Origin: Chamaesiphon minutus PCC 6605
GTDB lineage: Bacteria > Cyanobacteriota > Cyanobacteriia > Cyanobacteriales > Chamaesiphonaceae
NCBI RefSeq assembly: GCF_000317145.1
Contig: NC_019697.1
Coordinates: forward strand, 3,010,385-3,074,384
Length of the DNA stretch: 64,000 nucleotides
Reading direction: 5' to 3'
Below the pieces are notes generated by a model. That model ran no database searches and was not told where the DNA came from. It was given only the letters and a program-made list of their open reading frames with translations. The first letter of the stretch is position 1. The number at the start of each line of letters is the position of its first letter. Position numbers and translations under genes: made by a program. Below, piece by piece: positions 27,619 through 35,610 of the stretch.

Positions 27619-28512
27619 TTACTTCAATAGCTTTGTAAATTCGCGATTGGATTTGCTCAACCTAGCTTTGAGTTTAATCCCAAATCCGATCGCCAGTCCG
27701 ATCCCGATTAGATTGCTCGGTTCGGGTACGTTGGTAGTATTGGTAGTTATAGCGATCCTGCTAATATCCACACTCGCACCCGCAGAAGTCGTATTGTCGC
27801 CTAAGAAAATAAAGTTAGGATTCGTGTAACTATTCCCAACACCAACAGCGGCAGTATAGTTCCGCAATGCTCCAGCTAGTAATGTATTGCTACCATTTTT
27901 GAGGGTGTAAGTGTCCCCAAAGACAGTTAAATCATAGGTGTTCAGGCTAGATAGGAGCGTACCGATAGTGGTGTTTCGTTCGACAATGCTATTGAAACTA
28001 GCATCATTCTGAGCAAAAATATCGGGAATGTTCGATCCATCTTTAGTGTTGGGATTTCTAAATCCTATTTCAATTCCTCGATTGTCATTACCCAAGACGA
28101 GCGCGCTAAAACCAGCACGGAAGTCTCCATTTGTACCATTATTTGTCTGGGAATTAACTTTGACTGTAAAACTAAGTGTATACCCAGTATTGCGATCTAA
28201 AGTTGGAAATTGCGGGTTGACAATAGTGGTAAAACCAGTCAGATTATTGTTGTAATTAGTATAGCCAGCATAAGTGAATTCAGAAGTATTTGTATTGAGA
28301 GTGGTAACACCACCGCCCGCACTTTGCGATGCACCACTACCCAGACTGATAAAATTTAAGTAGGGATTTGGTGCGTTAAAAAGATTTGGCGTCACGCCCG
28401 ACGCGCCATCATAAAGTACAGTAGTCACAGCATTAACTCGATCGACACTTCCCACTCCTACAATACTAGATACAATAATCCCTGCAATTGCGACCCAAGA
28501 CTTTAGCTGCAT
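27619..28512 (-). CDS. Exported PEP-CTERM sorting-domain protein
   Basis: A 297-residue extracytoplasmic protein. Residues 1-28 are a signal peptide. The body is Asn/Thr/Gly-rich and beta-like (probably a concanavalin-type fold). The C-terminus has the sorting signal VPEPSNLIGIGLAIGFGIKL followed by basic residues, the PEP-CTERM pattern: motif, membrane helix, basic tail. Such proteins are handled by exosortase in other bacteria; cyanobacteria often carry them as cell-surface or exopolysaccharide-related proteins. Function unknown. Confidence 0.85.
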   Translation of the reverse strand: MQLKSWVAIAGIIVSSIVGVGSVDRVNAVTTVLYDGASGVTPNLFNAPNPYLNFISLGSGASQSAGGGVTTLNTNTSEFTYAGYTNYNNNLTGFTTIVNPQFPTLDRNTGYTLSFTVKVNSQTNNGTNGDFRAGFSALVLGNDNRGIEIGFRNPNTKDGSNIPDIFAQNDASFNSIVERNTTIGTLLSSLNTYDLTVFGDTYTLKNGSNTLLAGALRNYTAAVGVGNSYTNPNFIFLGDNTTSAGASVDISRIAITTNTTNVPEPSNLIGIGLAIGFGIKLKARLSKSNREFTKLLK

Positions 28513-28870: not shown

Positions 28871-30046
28871 ATGAATTACGATTTTAAAGAACTGGCACAG
28901 CTCTACAAAGATACGCTGCTAAATAACGTGGTGCCATTTTGGGAGCAAAACTCGATCGACTGGGAGTGTGGCGGCTACTATACTTGTCTCGATCGATCGG
29001 GCAAAGTCTACGATACCGATAAGTTTATCTGGCTTCAAAACCGTCAGGTGTGGACGTTTTCGATGTTGTACAATCGGGTGGAGCAGCGCAGTGAATGGCT
29101 CAAGATTGCCGGACACGGTGCGAACTTTTTGGCCGAGCACGGGCGCGATTTGCAGGGAAATTGGTATTTTGCCCTCGATCGAGCGGGACAGCCCCTCGTA
29201 CAGCCTTACAACATCTTCTCTGACTGTTTTGCGGCAATGGCTTTCAGTCAATTCGCCCTCGCCGATGGCGAATCTTGGGCGAAAGATGTCGCGCTGCAAG
29301 CGTATCAAAATGTGCTGCGGCGCAAGGACGATCCCAAGGGTCGCTACAATAAAACCTACCCCGGTACTCGATCTCTCAAATCTCTCGCCATCCCGATGAT
29401 TTTAGCCAATCTCACCTTAGAAATGGCTTGGTTATTGCCAGAGGAAGAACTCGACAGAGTGTTGGATCTGACTGTCAAAGAAGTGATGGGAGACTTTCTC
29501 GATAAAGAGCGCGGCTTAATGTACGAGCATGTCGCTCCCGATGGCAGCCATGTGGATTGTTTTGAGGGTCGATCGCTCAATCCCGGACATGGGATCGAAG
29601 CAATGTGGTTTATTATGGATATCGCCAACCGCCGTCAGGATACTGGCACTATTAACCAAGCTGTCGATGTCGTGTTAAACATCCTCAACGTTGCCTGGGA
29701 TGATAAATATGGCGGCATCTATTATTTCATGGATGCTGACGGACATCCGCCCCAACAATTAGAGTGGAATCAAAAGCTGTGGTGGGTACATGTCGAAACT
29801 CTCGTCGCGCTGGCAATGGGGTATCGGCTCACTGGTAGAGCGGAATGTTGGGACTGGTACTGCAAGGTGCATGAGTATACCTGGAGCCATTTTGCAGATA
29901 CAGAACATGGCGAGTGGTTTGGCTATCTCGATCGTCAAGGCGAAGTTTTACTCGATCTCAAAGGCGGTAAATGGAAAGGCTGTTTCCACGTACCCCGCGC
30001 TTTGTTGATGTGCTGGAGGGAGTTTGAGAAATTGGGTAATGGGTAG
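28871..30046 (+). CDS. N-acylglucosamine 2-epimerase (AGE) family protein
   Basis: A 391-residue (alpha/alpha)6-barrel sugar epimerase. Typical stretches are [32 protein letters not shown] with its catalytic histidine, and [19 protein letters not shown]. Family members epimerise GlcNAc/ManNAc or related sugars such as cellobiose. It is upstream of an exopolysaccharide-like module, so it may supply a sugar for that polymer, an inference. The last codons (LGNG then TAG) lie in GGGTAAT repeat units, so the C-terminus is encoded by the start of a heptad array. Confidence 0.9.
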
Positions 30047-30102
30047 ATGGGTGGATGGGTGGATGAGTAATAGGTAAGGGTAATGGGTAATGAATGGGTA
30101 GA
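30034..30102. repeat. GGGTAAT/GGGTGGAT tandem array at the epimerase stop
   Basis: ATTGGGTAATGGGTAGATGG continuing as GGTGGATGGGTGGATGAG and GGTAAGGGTAATGGGTAATG. G-rich heptads and related units begin inside the last codons of the epimerase gene and run about 55 bases beyond its TAG. Confidence 0.8.
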
Positions 30103-30326
30103 TCTTAATTTGGAACTGCGTTCCTACCCCCGCTCCCCGCTGTCTGGATCGCTCGTAACCGTCGCGAAACCCGACAAGCGCATCGCTCCCCCCTCCCCCA
30201 AACTGTCATAAAATCGATATACTAAGTTACCAAAATAAGATTTTCATCCGGTTATCGAGGTAGATCGAGCGAATAAGTAAGCCAGAGCTGGTTAGTAGTA
30301 AGTATTTTAAACCTAAGGAATTGGAC

Positions 30327-32285
30327 ATGATTCGCATTCTCCTGGTGGATGACCAGAAGAGCATTCGGGAACGCTTGAAGTCTTTGCTGGAGACCGAACC
30401 AGACTTCGACATCGTGGGAATGGTAGACAATGGCTATGATGCGATCGAGCAAGTCAAATTGCTGCTTCCTGATGTAGTGCTAATGGATATGGAAATGCCA
30501 GACATCGATGGCGTACTGGCTACCAAAATTATCGCCCACAGTTCCCTCAAAACTAGAGTCCTAGTACTCAGCAGCTACGATAGCGACGAGTATGTTGCTG
30601 ATTCGATCTATGCTGGTGCGAATGGCTATATTCTCAAGGGTGCGCCAGCTCAAGAAATTTGCGATGCCGTCCGCTTTGTCCATCGGGGATACATGCAGAT
30701 CGCGCCAGGATTGTTTGAAAAATTCATTCCCAACAAGGGGAATGGAGTATTGGATTGGAAGCCCAAAACTGCCAACACGCAACTATCGAGTGGCAAATTT
30801 GATGCTCCTGGCAGCTTGGAGCTGACGGGTATTAATAAGTTCGATAAAGCTACTGGGAGCAAATTGTTAGTACCAGGTTCGGAATTCGATCGACCTTCAG
30901 AATTAATTTTAGACGTCACGGCTTTAGCTCGATCGCGCAAATCGATCGGCTGGTATCAAGCTGCCGCACTGGTAATCGCCGGATTGGGACTGACATTTTC
31001 GATCTACCTCCTTCGCCAAAGTTTAAATAAACCCGCCGCGATACCAGAGCGTCAAGATCGATCGCAACAATTACACAATCTGCCATTTACTGGCAAAATT
31101 GAGCCGCTACATATCACTAACATCGATACGACGGTGCCCGGTTTGGTGTTGACATTACCGATTAAAGTCGGACAATCGGTCAATTATGGCGAGCGATTGC
31201 TCACTATTCGCAATATCGATGCCGAACGTGCCAATCAAACCAAAATTCTCCAACAACGGCAAATCACTGCCGAACGACAACAAGCTGCACTCCAGCAAAC
31301 AGCCGCGCTCCAGCAACAGCTACTACAGCAGCAACAGATCCTCATCGGCGAACGCCAAGCCGCCGCTGGACGGATTAAAACAGTCGAACAGGCGATTTCT
31401 AGTTATCAACGCAATTTAGCTCCCCTGCGCCAACAGGTAGCCGACGCGAACATCCAACTCAATGCCATCTCCGCACAGCCAGAACCATTACCTCTGGCTC
31501 AAAAGCGCGAAGCGATCGTCCGCGCGCAGGCAATCTACGATCTCGCGGTAGCTACCTACGAGCGAATGGCGCGCTATCAGAGTGAAGGCGCGATCTCTCA
31601 AGAACGGCTCGAACAAGCCGAAAAAGAGCAAATTGCCGCCAAATCCGACTTGAATATTGCCCGCGCCGATTATGACAGGCTGAGTACAGCCGCCCGAACT
31701 GCCACAACCAAACAAGCCGCTCAAAACCAATCGGCGCGCCTGCAACAACAATTAGCACTCAAAGAACAAGCCGAACAACTCCAACAACTTCGGGCACAAC
31801 TCCAAGCTGCAAAATCGGACTATCAACAACTGGGGACTAAGCTGCAACAATTGCAACAACAAAAAGTTAAACCGATCGCCACAAGTGCGCCAGTCAGCCA
31901 AAAACCCGTGCTAGAAACAACCACGATCGATATTTTCGCCCCCGTGACGGGGATGGCAATCGAAATTCCCGTCGCGATCGGCGATCGGGTTTTTGCTGGT
32001 AGTAAATTAATGAGTATTACCGATCCCAAAAAGCTTAAAATCGGTGTAGATTTAGAATCCCAACAAGCCGCACTCCTCAAACCCGGACAAAAGGCGATCG
32101 TCAAAGTGGGTACTGCGATCGAAAGCCAAGAATTAACCGCCCTAGTCACCAACATCGCGCCCTCATTCCTAGGTGGAGCCGCTCCCACAGAGAATCGATT
32201 GACTCAACGCATCCAAGTTGAATTTACCAATCCTAAATCTACCATCCTCATCGGTCAAACTGGGACGGTGTATTTTCTGAAATAG
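30327..32285 (+). CDS. Response-regulator receiver domain fused to HlyD-type adaptor
   Basis: A 652-residue protein with an unusual order. Residues 1-120 are a NarL-type receiver domain: acidic pair D8-D9, phosphoacceptor D54 in VVLMDMEMPD, Ser/Thr switch near 82, K104 in YILKGAP. A linker of about 85 residues leads to one membrane helix (209-229), then a membrane-fusion protein: lipoyl-like half motifs (about 260-300 and 535-570), a long Gln/Ala-rich coiled coil (about 300-510) and a beta-barrel end. HlyD proteins join an inner-membrane exporter to an outer-membrane channel; here phosphorylation in the cytoplasm could act on the periplasmic adaptor. AAGGAATTGGAC before ATG 30327 supports this start over TTG 30321. 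Confidence 0.9.
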   Translation: MIRILLVDDQKSIRERLKSLLETEPDFDIVGMVDNGYDAIEQVKLLLPDVVLMDMEMPDIDGVLATKIIAHSSLKTRVLVLSSYDSDEYVADSIYAGANGYILKGAPAQEICDAVRFVHRGYMQIAPGLFEKFIPNKGNGVLDWKPKTANTQLSSGKFDAPGSLELTGINKFDKATGSKLLVPGSEFDRPSELILDVTALARSRKSIGWYQAAALVIAGLGLTFSIYLLRQSLNKPAAIPERQDRSQQLHNLPFTGKIEPLHITNIDTTVPGLVLTLPIKVGQSVNYGERLLTIRNIDAERANQTKILQQRQITAERQQAALQQTAALQQQLLQQQQILIGERQAAAGRIKTVEQAISSYQRNLAPLRQQVADANIQLNAISAQPEPLPLAQKREAIVRAQAIYDLAVATYERMARYQSEGAISQERLEQAEKEQIAAKSDLNIARADYDRLSTAARTATTKQAAQNQSARLQQQLALKEQAEQLQQLRAQLQAAKSDYQQLGTKLQQLQQQKVKPIATSAPVSQKPVLETTTIDIFAPVTGMAIEIPVAIGDRVFAGSKLMSITDPKKLKIGVDLESQQAALLKPGQKAIVKVGTAIESQELTALVTNIAPSFLGGAAPTENRLTQRIQVEFTNPKSTILIGQTGTVYFLK

Positions 32286-32471
32286 GCTTTAGGCTTTATG
32301 ATTGAGACGCCAGCATCTTAGTTCTGAATAATATTGAATAGCTAATTCCTGAAGTCTTGCTCCTAACACCTAACACCTAAAGCCTAACACCTAATACCTA
32401 AAGCCTAAAGCCTAAAGCCTAAAGCCTAAAGCCTAAAGCCTAAAGCCTAAAGCCTAAAACCTAAAACCTAG
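32283..32471. repeat. Long CCTAAAG array between REC-HlyD and PelF-like genes
   Basis: TAG of the upstream stop begins TAGGCTTTAGGC. A core of about 60 bases follows, then from 32362 fifteen uninterrupted heptads CCTAANN (eight consecutive CCTAAAG at 32397-32452, flanked by CCTAACA, CCTAATA and CCTAAAA variants), then CCTAG and the ATG at 32472. It is the longest and purest array in the window. The core has TGAGACGCCAGCATCTT, similar to the core at 11181-11205. Confidence 0.92.
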
Positions 32472-33977
32472 ATGAAGCCTTGCATTCTGCTGACAACCGA
32501 GGGTACCTATCCATTTTTGGGTGGGGGTGTAAGTACGTGGTGTCATGAATTGACCCATAATATGCCAGAAGTAGATTTCAAGCTGCTGGCGATCGTGGCG
32601 AATCCTTATCTACCTCAGCAGTATCAACTCTCAGCCAATGTCACGCAAGTCCTCAAGGTGCCGCTGTGGGGCATGGAAGACCCGATCGAATATGGTTGGC
32701 GGTTTCCGTTTTCTCGTGCCTTAAAGAGCAAAATTGCCACCACTGGGACGATAATTAACCAACGATTTATCCCTCTATTCGAGCAACTTTTAAAAGGGAT
32801 TTTATTGCCAGATTTGATGGATATCGATACGCTAGGTCAGACGTTTGTCGCGATTCACAAATATTTTCTGCGCTATGACTACCACAAAACGATGATGTCG
32901 ATCGAGGTATGGGAATGTTTTCAAAAACTGGCTACTACAGCTTGGCAATCTCAAGTTAAACCCGATCGCATTACCCTAGGGGAGATTGCCGAAACACTCA
33001 AGCTGCTATATCGGCTACTAATCCCTCTGCACGTTCCGATTCCTGCTGTCGATTTAATTCACTCGTCAGCAGCTAGTTACTGTGGTTTACCAGGAATAAT
33101 TGGCAAGCTGGAATATCGAATTCCCTATTTACTCACCGAGCACGGTATTAATATTCGCGAGCAATATCTCAATCTTCGCACTTCGATTCCGTCTATTTTC
33201 GTGCGTCGCTTTTTACATTATCTCGTCAGTGCAGTGGTGAAATTAAATTATCATTTTGCGGATCTTATTTTGCCAGTCTGTACCTATAATACCCGCTGGG
33301 AACAGTGGTGGGATGTACCTCCCGAAAAAATAAAAGTTGTTTATAATGGTGCCAACCCAGATAAATTTAAACCTCAAAACTATCCTCCCAACGATCGACC
33401 CGTCGTTTTGAATATGGGACTGATTTTCGCGCTCAAAGGACAATTAACTTTAATTGAAGCTGCGGCAATCGTGCGCGAGACGTTTCCCGATGTCGAATTT
33501 AGACTTTATGGTAAACCCACCGACTTAGATTACTTTGCCCGCTGTCAACAAAAAGTTCGCGAATATGGATTAGAAAAAATTGTTAATTTTGCTGGGTTTA
33601 CGAGCGAGCCATTGCGGGCTTATAGCGAGGGTGATGTTGTGGCGATGTCTAGTGTCTCTGAAGGTTTCCCGTATGCAGTTATCGAAGCCATGTTTTGTGG
33701 CTGTGCGATCGTCTCTACCGATGTTGGTGGCGTTCCCGAAGCCTTGGGCGATACTGGTTTATTAGTGCCAGCCGATCGACCGAGCGAGCTAGCTAATGCG
33801 ATCGTTAAATTGCTAAGTTTAACTCATCAGCAGCGAAAACAAATGGGTGTCAAATCTCGACAGCGCGCAATCGAACTATTCACTCAAACAAAATGCGTGC
33901 AAACATATCTCGATACTTATCTGCAATTAATTCGACAAGCTCGAATTGGTGAATTGAAGATGAATAATAAAATATGA
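32472..33977 (+). CDS. PelF-like GT4 glycosyltransferase
   Basis: A 501-residue retaining glycosyltransferase of GT-B fold. The N-terminus (LLTTEGTYPFLGGGVSTWCHELTH) matches PelF-type enzymes, which polymerise the Pel polysaccharide from a UDP-sugar. The C-terminal half has the GT4 EX7E motif in SEGFPYAVIEAMFCG and the following STDVGGVPEAL. No membrane segment, as expected for a cytosolic PelF. It overlaps the next gene by 4 bases (ATGA). Other pel genes (pelA-E) are not in the window. Confidence 0.88.
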   Translation: MKPCILLTTEGTYPFLGGGVSTWCHELTHNMPEVDFKLLAIVANPYLPQQYQLSANVTQVLKVPLWGMEDPIEYGWRFPFSRALKSKIATTGTIINQRFIPLFEQLLKGILLPDLMDIDTLGQTFVAIHKYFLRYDYHKTMMSIEVWECFQKLATTAWQSQVKPDRITLGEIAETLKLLYRLLIPLHVPIPAVDLIHSSAASYCGLPGIIGKLEYRIPYLLTEHGINIREQYLNLRTSIPSIFVRRFLHYLVSAVVKLNYHFADLILPVCTYNTRWEQWWDVPPEKIKVVYNGANPDKFKPQNYPPNDRPVVLNMGLIFALKGQLTLIEAAAIVRETFPDVEFRLYGKPTDLDYFARCQQKVREYGLEKIVNFAGFTSEPLRAYSEGDVVAMSSVSEGFPYAVIEAMFCGCAIVSTDVGGVPEALGDTGLLVPADRPSELANAIVKLLSLTHQQRKQMGVKSRQRAIELFTQTKCVQTYLDTYLQLIRQARIGELKMNNKI

Positions 33978-35515
33978 CCAATCATCTCCTCCAAAACTTA
34001 ATCGATTCAATTTATACCAATTATCCTAATGTTTGCGATCCTTGGGAAATAGTTGCAATCGTCGAAGCTTTGGGATATACAGACAAAACAATTGAGAGTG
34101 ATTTTGGCTGTCCTAATGCCCTGGTCTTGGGTCAATTTATATATGCACAGCGAGAGCAATTTCCATTTGCTGAAACAGCAACCCGATTCGACAAAGGACA
34201 GCCCACATTTAAGGATGAATTAGATATTTTTTTCGCTCAATTCTTTCACAGTTTTATTTACACAATTCCATTCATAATTTTATTAATACTAAATTATTTA
34301 CCAGTAGATAAGACGTCAGATTTTCTACCGCCAGAACTCAACTCATTATTTGGGTTTGTGACGATGGCTAGTCTGATCGCTAGCGGCGGTTTTGTGCAGA
34401 TGATTAGCCGTAGAGGTTTATTTTATATCGGACTAAAAGCTAATGCACAAGCCAATCGGATTTGTAATTCGATTCTAGCGATGGGAATTTTCACAACTAT
34501 TTTACTCAGCTCGTTTGGAGTTCTGTTTAGCTTTTACCAAGAGATTGCTACCGATCGATATACGATCGTTGCCGGAATTTACTACTTAGTTCTCAGCATA
34601 ATTTGGATGTTATTCGCAATCGTCGGACTCCAAAATCGATTTGCAGCCCCAACTATTTTAATCGGCGTCACTTGTTGCTTTTTTATATTTCGATTTTTCT
34701 TTAAGTTAAGTGCGCTAGAATCACAAATAGCGATGATATCGATCGCCTTTGTCTCTTTAATAGTATTGTTTATATTCAACCAGATCGAGCATCGATCGAT
34801 TAGACCAAAGTTCGGACAAATAGTACCATTACCACGGCTGAGCGTTCTTATTTATTTATTGATTCCTTACTTTTTATATGGAATCGTGTATTTTGGATTT
34901 ATCTTTGCAGATCGATTGGTTGCTAACATTGCTGTAGCTGGTCACCTGAGAGCGATCGCAGGCAATAACCTAGATTACCAAAACAGTATGGACTTAGCAT
35001 TACTAAATCTATTACTCATCGTTCCCTTTGTCGAATATTGTAGCTACAAAATGGTGATGTTTTGGTACGATCGAGCTAAAAACATGACTTTGGCCGAGAT
35101 CGATGGCCTGTCTTGGCAATTACAAAAAAAATACTGGTTACTATTAAGCCGCATCTTATTATACTTTGGCTTGCTGATGTCGATCGTCATCATTTTATTA
35201 TCTATTTTGCAGCGCAGTCAAATAGATAATGCTTTGACAATTTTTGCCTGCTTAGGCTATTTACTATTCGCAATCGGTTTATTTAATACCGTGATTTTAC
35301 TCAGCCTCGATCGACTGTATGATATTCTAGGAATACTAACAACAGCCACAATTATTGACTTTATTGTTGGCTACTTACTCAGTAGTTTATTCGGCGTATA
35401 TCTCGCCGCGATCGGGTTGGTTATTGGCGCGAGTTTCTTTGCCATTACTTCCAGTCAAAAGATTCTTAAAGCGATCGAGCGACCTGAATATTGTTATTTT
35501 TATAGTGGATATTGA
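33974..35515 (+). CDS. Polytopic membrane protein of polysaccharide module
   Basis: A 513-residue protein with a soluble N-terminal part of about 80 residues and roughly twelve hydrophobic helices from about residue 88. It is coupled by a 4-base overlap to the PelF-like gene, the place where pelG (a MOP-superfamily transporter) sits in pel operons. I cannot match it to PelG by motif, so PelG-like is a positional inference; flippase or polymer transporter are the likely classes. Strongly AT-rich third positions and hydrophobic composition are as usual for such proteins. Confidence 0.75.
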   Translation: MTNHLLQNLIDSIYTNYPNVCDPWEIVAIVEALGYTDKTIESDFGCPNALVLGQFIYAQREQFPFAETATRFDKGQPTFKDELDIFFAQFFHSFIYTIPFIILLILNYLPVDKTSDFLPPELNSLFGFVTMASLIASGGFVQMISRRGLFYIGLKANAQANRICNSILAMGIFTTILLSSFGVLFSFYQEIATDRYTIVAGIYYLVLSIIWMLFAIVGLQNRFAAPTILIGVTCCFFIFRFFFKLSALESQIAMISIAFVSLIVLFIFNQIEHRSIRPKFGQIVPLPRLSVLIYLLIPYFLYGIVYFGFIFADRLVANIAVAGHLRAIAGNNLDYQNSMDLALLNLLLIVPFVEYCSYKMVMFWYDRAKNMTLAEIDGLSWQLQKKYWLLLSRILLYFGLLMSIVIILLSILQRSQIDNALTIFACLGYLLFAIGLFNTVILLSLDRLYDILGILTTATIIDFIVGYLLSSLFGVYLAAIGLVIGASFFAITSSQKILKAIERPEYCYFYSGY

Positions 35516-35610
35516 GATAGTTGATAGTTGATAGTTGATAGTTGATAGTTTAGAGAACAAGTTCTCTAAATCGCTACCCATCCACCCATCCACCCATCCA
35601 CCTATTTACT
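35516..35610. repeat. Convergent terminator region with GATAGTT and CATCCAC arrays
   Basis: GATAGTT heptads (five, 35515-35549), then the perfect palindrome TTTAGAGAAC-AA-GTTCTCTAAA (35549-35570), then ACCCATCC/ACCTATT units (35575-35610). It lies between convergent genes, so the hairpin can terminate both. It again shows the order G-rich array, hairpin, C-rich array. Confidence 0.8.

Follow-up and report, generated by a model that had tools for sequence, protein, structure and literature searches.

The outputs of two-component systems are mostly transcriptional or enzymatic. Within the 64,000 nt of Chamaesiphon minutus PCC 6605 DNA analysed herein (the window; NC_019697.1, positions 3,010,385 to 3,074,384), a gene located at 30327..32285 on the + strand encodes a 652 aa protein in which a receiver domain is joined, via a transmembrane helix, to an HlyD-type periplasmic adaptor, raising the question of what a phosphoacceptor domain might control from within an export machine. 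The source genome (G000) comprises 6.76 Mb on 3 contigs, with the window being chromosomal. The reading that we favour, and which we regard as an evenly balanced proposition, is that of an orphan response regulator which, through its adaptor output, gates a Pel-like polysaccharide exporter post-translationally via phosphorylation of D54.

The adaptor gene is a single open frame, running from an ATG at 30327 to a stop codon ending at 32285, with AAGGA situated 7 bases before the ATG and an alternative in-frame TTG start possible at 30321. Pfam analysis identifies Response_reg (PF00072) at residues 4–116 (E 8.8e-25, 87.5 bits against a cut-off of 30.2), alongside HlyD_3 at residues 536–634 (E 3.1e-13, 50.8 bits against a cut-off of 22.2) and HlyD_D23 at residues 477–638 (E 1e-10, 41.7 bits against a cut-off of 30). 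Beyond these there is no further Pfam domain in the protein at E 0.01, including no DNA-binding or helix-turn-helix domain. The receiver, which is of NarL type, occupies residues 1–118 (30327..30680, +), within which D8, D9, D54, S82 and K104 can be read directly, and is followed by a conserved tail (residues 119–135) and a linker (residues 136–205) that is variable between congeners and, from its pLDDT, probably disordered (together 30681..30941, +). A transmembrane helix at residues 210–231 (30954..31019, +) coincides with the hydropathy peak of the protein (residues 211–229), and the periplasmic adaptor encompasses residues 233–652 (31023..32282, +). The original prediction of an intact phosphoacceptor site (D8, D9, D54, K104), sharing its chain with a periplasmic adaptor and with no DNA-binding output, is thus upheld by one ORF with Pfam domains at both ends, a single transmembrane helix, and the residues themselves.

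An AlphaFold2 model of the protein (10 rows; mean pLDDT 63.5, pTM 0.31) is better for the adaptor than for the receiver and linker, with the receiver half being too poor for use and pLDDT falling below 50 over residues 121–209. It places one helix at residues 210–231, followed by a beta/lipoyl-like part with a coiled-coil hairpin at residues 297–513 (31215..31865, +). The best Foldseek matches of the adaptor model are EmrA, MacA and ZneB (E 4e-16 to 4e-13), with AcrA and MexA also returned; TM-scores for the best rows are low (0.2 by whole query, 0.36–0.58 by target) and rmsd values large, so these matches support a predicted adaptor type but fall short of a detailed fit. At the hairpin tip, assigned using what we take to be the residue spacing of the RLS motif, a motif scan reveals R413-Y417-S424 (31563-31598, +), i.e. 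R-x3-Y-x6-S. Amongst 13 orthologues, the strict RLS form is found in 4 and the Y form in 6, whilst 3 have neither, which counts against the favoured reading. RLS is a named adaptor signature in PMC8277102. TolC-type (OEP) channels are present in all 6 of the 6 genomes searched.

The search for this architecture and its neighbours that had been proposed as a check returned 14 orthologues and showed that the linkage to pelF and to a flippase gene is conserved. Of 100 relatives, 11 carry the adaptor half, as do 3 of the 386 genomes in a draw across the phylum, with the window's own genome belonging to both sets; the 14 distinct orthologues derive from these two sets and Hydrococcus rivularis (L028), with L025, L026 and L027 (apparently the contigs of G002, G004 and G009) not counted twice. 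Orthologues from Chamaesiphon and from distant cyanobacteria share a continuous architecture, displaying 29–76 % identity to the window protein. An intact receiver is present on the same chain in 11/14, with DD, D54 and K104 all kept in 10; G173 has ED in place of DD, together with D54 and K104. The receiver of G046 is degenerate, with EQ replacing the acidic pair and the aligned D and K still there, whilst the G316 adaptor (520 aa) is a frame with no receiver, its adjoining upstream gene encoding a phosphoglucosamine-mutase-type enzyme. The loss in G316 and the decay in G046 may represent one event or two, as forks are open in both trees. The G008 orthologue is cut by a contig end. With regard to plasmids, none of the 1135 records matched covers 80 % of the query, and the matches listed span 20–39 % of it, starting in the receiver. 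An assembly or frame artefact, one of the outcomes named in advance as fatal to the original prediction, is rejected by the continuous orthologues in other genomes and by codon-level constraint.

The receiver is under strong purifying selection. When the window is compared with three congeners, dN amounts to 0.022–0.026 for the receiver and 0.185–0.254 for the adaptor, such that the former lies 8–10 times below the latter in all three pairs; synonymous change is near saturation in these comparisons and replacement change in the receiver almost nil. The pattern extends to other pairs, with receiver and adaptor dN values of 0.009 and 0.134, respectively, for G004–G006, and 0 and 0.091 for G001–G006. 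Such slow evolution, combined with an intact site, would favour real phospho-signalling, and retention of the site in 11/14 orthologues together with low receiver dN argues for a phospho-gated exporter. Weighing against phospho-gating are the absent and degenerate receivers of G316 and G046, and the lack of a linked kinase: no kinase domain was found within 160 kb of the adaptor gene, window included. The closest chromosomal HATPase_c found is ~165 kb away; of the 81 matches to this domain along the chromosome, 22 lack a receiver within 5 kb.

The same observations lend something to a different explanation, namely that the receiver acts independently of phosphorylation, as a scaffold or targeting domain that dimerises the adaptor, anchors PelF or positions the complex, with the site being kept for the sake of the fold. 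Adaptor and pelF do persist where the receiver is degenerate (G046) or absent (G316), and a linked kinase is lacking, as would be expected of a scaffold; however, most orthologues retain D54, K104 and the acidic pair, at very low dN, and we consider this explanation somewhat unlikely. Judging by the G316 protein and by that of G046, in which the acidic pair is lost, phospho-control may be dispensable for adaptor function. Given loss or decay in two lineages, the receiver of the phospho-gated exporter that we favour is, by comparison of these genes, apparently a control added to a machine able to run without it. The direct phospho-control of an export channel put forward originally therefore stands in part: the intact site, the shared chain and the link to pelF speak for it, whilst the control itself is something that we infer, and a linked kinase is lacking.

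Downstream of the adaptor gene lies pelF (32472..33977, +), encoding a GT4 glycosyltransferase of 501 aa that matches NCBIfam PelF (NF038011) at 125.2 bits, against a cut-off of 100, as well as Pfam DUF3492. The two genes are separated by a tandem repeat of approximately thirteen CCTAAAG heptamers (32362..32470, +), with short heptamer arrays also occurring at 30033-30092 and 35516-35550. pelF is directly 3′ of the adaptor gene in 12/14 loci. The exceptions are G006, where the adaptor gene ends one contig and pelF and the flippase gene end another, and G002, where the adaptor gene is followed by a long dnaE-like gene and pelF sits on a different contig. Overlapping pelF by 4 bases in the window is a gene for a flippase-like protein of 513 aa (33974..35515, +). 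A homologous protein with ~12 transmembrane helices follows pelF in 11 of 12 loci, with the G005 and G008 copies cut by contig ends; at G173 a Spherulin4 gene takes this place, and no flippase is found among the ORFs listed at that locus.

The flippase-like protein of the window has no Pfam or NCBIfam match, and the PelG model (PF16933) finds nothing in 6/6 genomes of the adaptor set. The same model matches G111, G135 and G144, distant genomes with canonical-scoring pelF, at 1e-84 or better. Identity as a true PelG by sequence is accordingly rejected, with PF16933 failing and an hhalign profile comparison being weak (E 0.29). An AlphaFold2 model of the protein (mean pLDDT 74.8, pTM 0.73) aligns to MATE transporters and WzxE with Z of 20–25 over ~400 residues (VIA-align), and its predicted fold is that of the MOP superfamily, which PelG presumably shares. 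Outside of the MOP match, and before the membrane part, is a conserved N-terminal stretch of ~75 residues (33974-34200) that could be a docking domain.

Of the 100 relatives, 12 carry pelF and 11 the adaptor, with all 11 common to both; the twelfth pelF genome is G003, where the gene is at a contig edge. In the 386-genome draw, 6 carry pelF: the adaptor is present in 3 of them, and the remaining 3 are distant genomes whose PelG is canonical. This co-occurrence (11/11 relatives, 3/3 in the phylum draw) and the pelF linkage in 12/14 loci argue for a Pel-like exporter, as do the adaptor fold, RLS-like tip, OEP channels, MOP fold and sugar genes near relatives' loci. Set against a Pel-like exporter are the failure of the PelG model, the poor hhalign value, the lack of a flippase at G173 and the non-adjoining pelF of G002.

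Spherulin4-type hydrolases are tied to GalNAc polymers, and genes for these lie near the G093 and G173 loci. RTX proteins with a polysaccharide deacetylase domain are found near G316 and G046, a phosphoglucosamine-mutase-type gene (which we take to be glmM) directly upstream in Hydrococcus and G316, and an NAD-dependent epimerase gene (presumably galE) near Hydrococcus and G173. Sugar enzymes near some relatives' loci thus point to a Pel-like polymer. In the window itself, the only sugar gene next to the set is that of an N-acylglucosamine 2-epimerase (28871..30046, +; NCBIfam AGE, 674 bits), upstream of the adaptor gene, so the amino-sugar reading rests partly on relatives, and the favoured reading is to that extent weakened. 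By synteny, the 2-epimerase gene adjoins the adaptor gene in four Chamaesiphon loci (window, L012, L013, L015) and not in L014, making its membership of the gene set uncertain. Divergent from it, at 27619-28512, is a gene for a PEP-CTERM protein with a choice-of-anchor Y domain.

When compared to Pel itself (P. aeruginosa pelABCDEFG; B. cereus pelDEADAFG), the Chamaesiphon set is alike in having PelF next to a polytopic flippase-like protein, and some relatives' loci have separate hydrolase and deacetylase genes nearby. It is unlike Pel in that a receiver-HlyD adaptor leads the set and the flippase fails the PelG model. PelD was found above cut-off in none of nine genomes (9/9), in each of two model searches in which no control matched. 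Elsewhere, Pel is under post-translational control through c-di-GMP and PelD, according to PMC7112168, which by analogy would be consistent with post-translational gating here.

EmrA, MacA and ZneB serve drug or metal pumps, and their standing as the best structural matches is one reason to ask if the adaptor serves some other export, such as drug, lipid or protein efflux via an unlinked pump, with the sugar genes being mere neighbours. That related receiver-adaptor proteins adjoin C39-ABC exporters is another. Yet pelF is directly linked in 12/14 loci, and the adaptor and pelF co-occur across distant cyanobacteria, leaving this explanation improbable. The adaptor does resemble EmrA, MacA and HlyD in its transmembrane helix, lipoyl/barrel part and long hairpin with a candidate RLS-like tip; unlike them, it bears a cytoplasmic N-terminal receiver and is linked to a MOP-fold protein and not to an MFS, ABC or RND pump. 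Release of the receiver by proteolysis, to act as a soluble regulator whose amount the fusion merely ties to that of the exporter, could draw on a linker that is long, fast-evolving (49–58 % identity between the window and three congeners) and of the very low prediction confidence typical of disordered stretches, but is highly improbable given one continuous frame in independent genomes, no conserved internal start and a released piece with no DNA-binding part. Separate production of the receiver is similarly contradicted by conservation across genomes, and no methionine of the linker is conserved amongst aligned orthologues, giving no sign of a separate adaptor start.

In the phospho-gated, Pel-like exporter that we favour, the machine would consist of PelF as cytoplasmic glycosyltransferase, the MOP-fold protein as inner-membrane flippase, and the receiver-adaptor. 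PelF would polymerise the putative chain, the MOP protein would pass it through the inner membrane, and the adaptor would hand it to a candidate TolC-type outer-membrane channel encoded elsewhere. An unlinked histidine kinase would phosphorylate D54, changing the dimerisation or docking surface of the receiver on the cytoplasmic side. The phosphorylated receiver might then either favour oligomerisation of the adaptor and formation of the envelope channel, or dock PelF and the flippase to the adaptor, the direction of gating being likewise conjectural; in each case export would be switched without transcription. If true, a receiver hard-wired to an export-channel adaptor lets secretion answer a kinase without gene expression, and the orphan receiver, with one acceptor residue and three genes, offers a compact system for asking whether polysaccharide export can be phospho-gated where other bacteria use c-di-GMP. 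The receiver-HlyD architecture was not found in the literature searched (titles and abstracts, with subscription journals mostly outside coverage), and the searched text of PMC4594306 contains neither HlyD, receiver nor response regulator as whole words. The parts themselves are of known kinds; what appears to be new is their combination, in which the output of a response regulator is an export adaptor, within a Pel-like set whose flippase is not PelG by Pfam model.

Other envelope export proteins carry related receivers as well, which for the most part group separately from those of DNA-binding regulators. A contig scan, from which the best 80 of 421 matches were considered, and whose patterns favour MI(R/K)IL(L/I)VDD and VL(M/L)D(M/L)EMP, revealed amongst these 80 a receiver with HlyD_3 (Pfam) in L030, L032, L034, L038 and L042, with L031 and L037 resembling L030 by sequence, and, in L029 and L035, a receiver on a two-transmembrane coiled protein with a sub-threshold GNVR match. 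Like the window protein, L029, L030, L032, L034, L035, L038 and L042 have a same-type N-terminal receiver, then a transmembrane helix and an envelope protein. The neighbours differ: a pelF set in the window, glycosyltransferase clusters for L029 and L035, and C39-ABC exporters for L032 and L038, which lie after ABC transporters with C39 peptidase domains. No recognisable transporter adjoins the L030, L031 and L034 loci, and L033 consists of a receiver, a transmembrane helix and a sub-threshold BON match. Within the best 80 of 421, NarL/LuxR-type cyanobacterial regulators have receivers 44–58 % identical to that of the window over the matched stretch, with the same acceptor residues; they differ in that the window protein has an adaptor output replacing the helix-turn-helix (HTH). 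The window receiver has DxEMP and S82, whereas in the cyanobacterial HTH rows MP is preceded by different letters and residue 82 is mostly T.

In a tree of 61 receiver rows, 16 of the 24 with membrane outputs form one group (88/89, not starred), the other 8 lying elsewhere, and the 31 HTH rows form one group (89/88, not starred). These labels were assigned by length, motif and hydropathy, with the 'membrane' row L071 having no predicted transmembrane helix and the 'HTH' row L078 being truncated at 135 aa; the branch of L011 is very long. A single origin of all membrane-output receivers is unsupported, as no fewer than 3 changes on the tree are required to account for the 24 rows. D54 is kept in all 31 HTH rows among the best 80 of 421, where EMP follows D54 in 20/24 membrane rows versus 0/24 cyanobacterial HTH rows, a contrast that is partly selected since the scan pattern favours DxEMP. 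At E 1e-52, a model of 14 membrane-output-type receivers gives 63 matches in 49/386 genomes; 6 of these 63 (4 genomes), among them the four best, are in open frames of at least 600 aa. As the model was built from membrane-output-type rows, these counts show rarity more than preference. That several types of export protein bear a related receiver is suggestive of a control module that can be reused. It is possible, though we would rate it a little short of even, that a cyanobacterial receiver lineage left transcription and became a plug-in phospho-switch on Pel-like, C39-ABC and Wzy-type co-polymerase-like machines, replacing c-di-GMP/PelD in the Pel-like case.

A number of these loci display features of their own. 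The L029 (8001-10178) and L035 (3843-5939) genes encode receiver-TM-coiled-coil-TM proteins inside glycosyltransferase clusters, and are possibly receiver-fused chain-length regulators; the L035 gene lies, among glycosyltransferase-like genes, ahead of one whose product has a sub-threshold O-antigen-ligase match, and a third such copy is found in G357 (L123). L032 (419-8442) presents an ABC transporter with cyclic-nucleotide-binding and C39 peptidase domains, followed by the receiver-HlyD adaptor, a rotamase and, two kb downstream, a Nif11 gene, possibly forming a signal-controlled peptide export set. For L033 (8001-9044), the acceptor position aligns to Asn (MNMEMP), and its receiver is, from this residue, probably not phosphorylated there. 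Finally, the Calothrix receiver-HlyD gene of L038 (1961-4210) harbours an in-frame insertion of ~40 residues near the receiver end.
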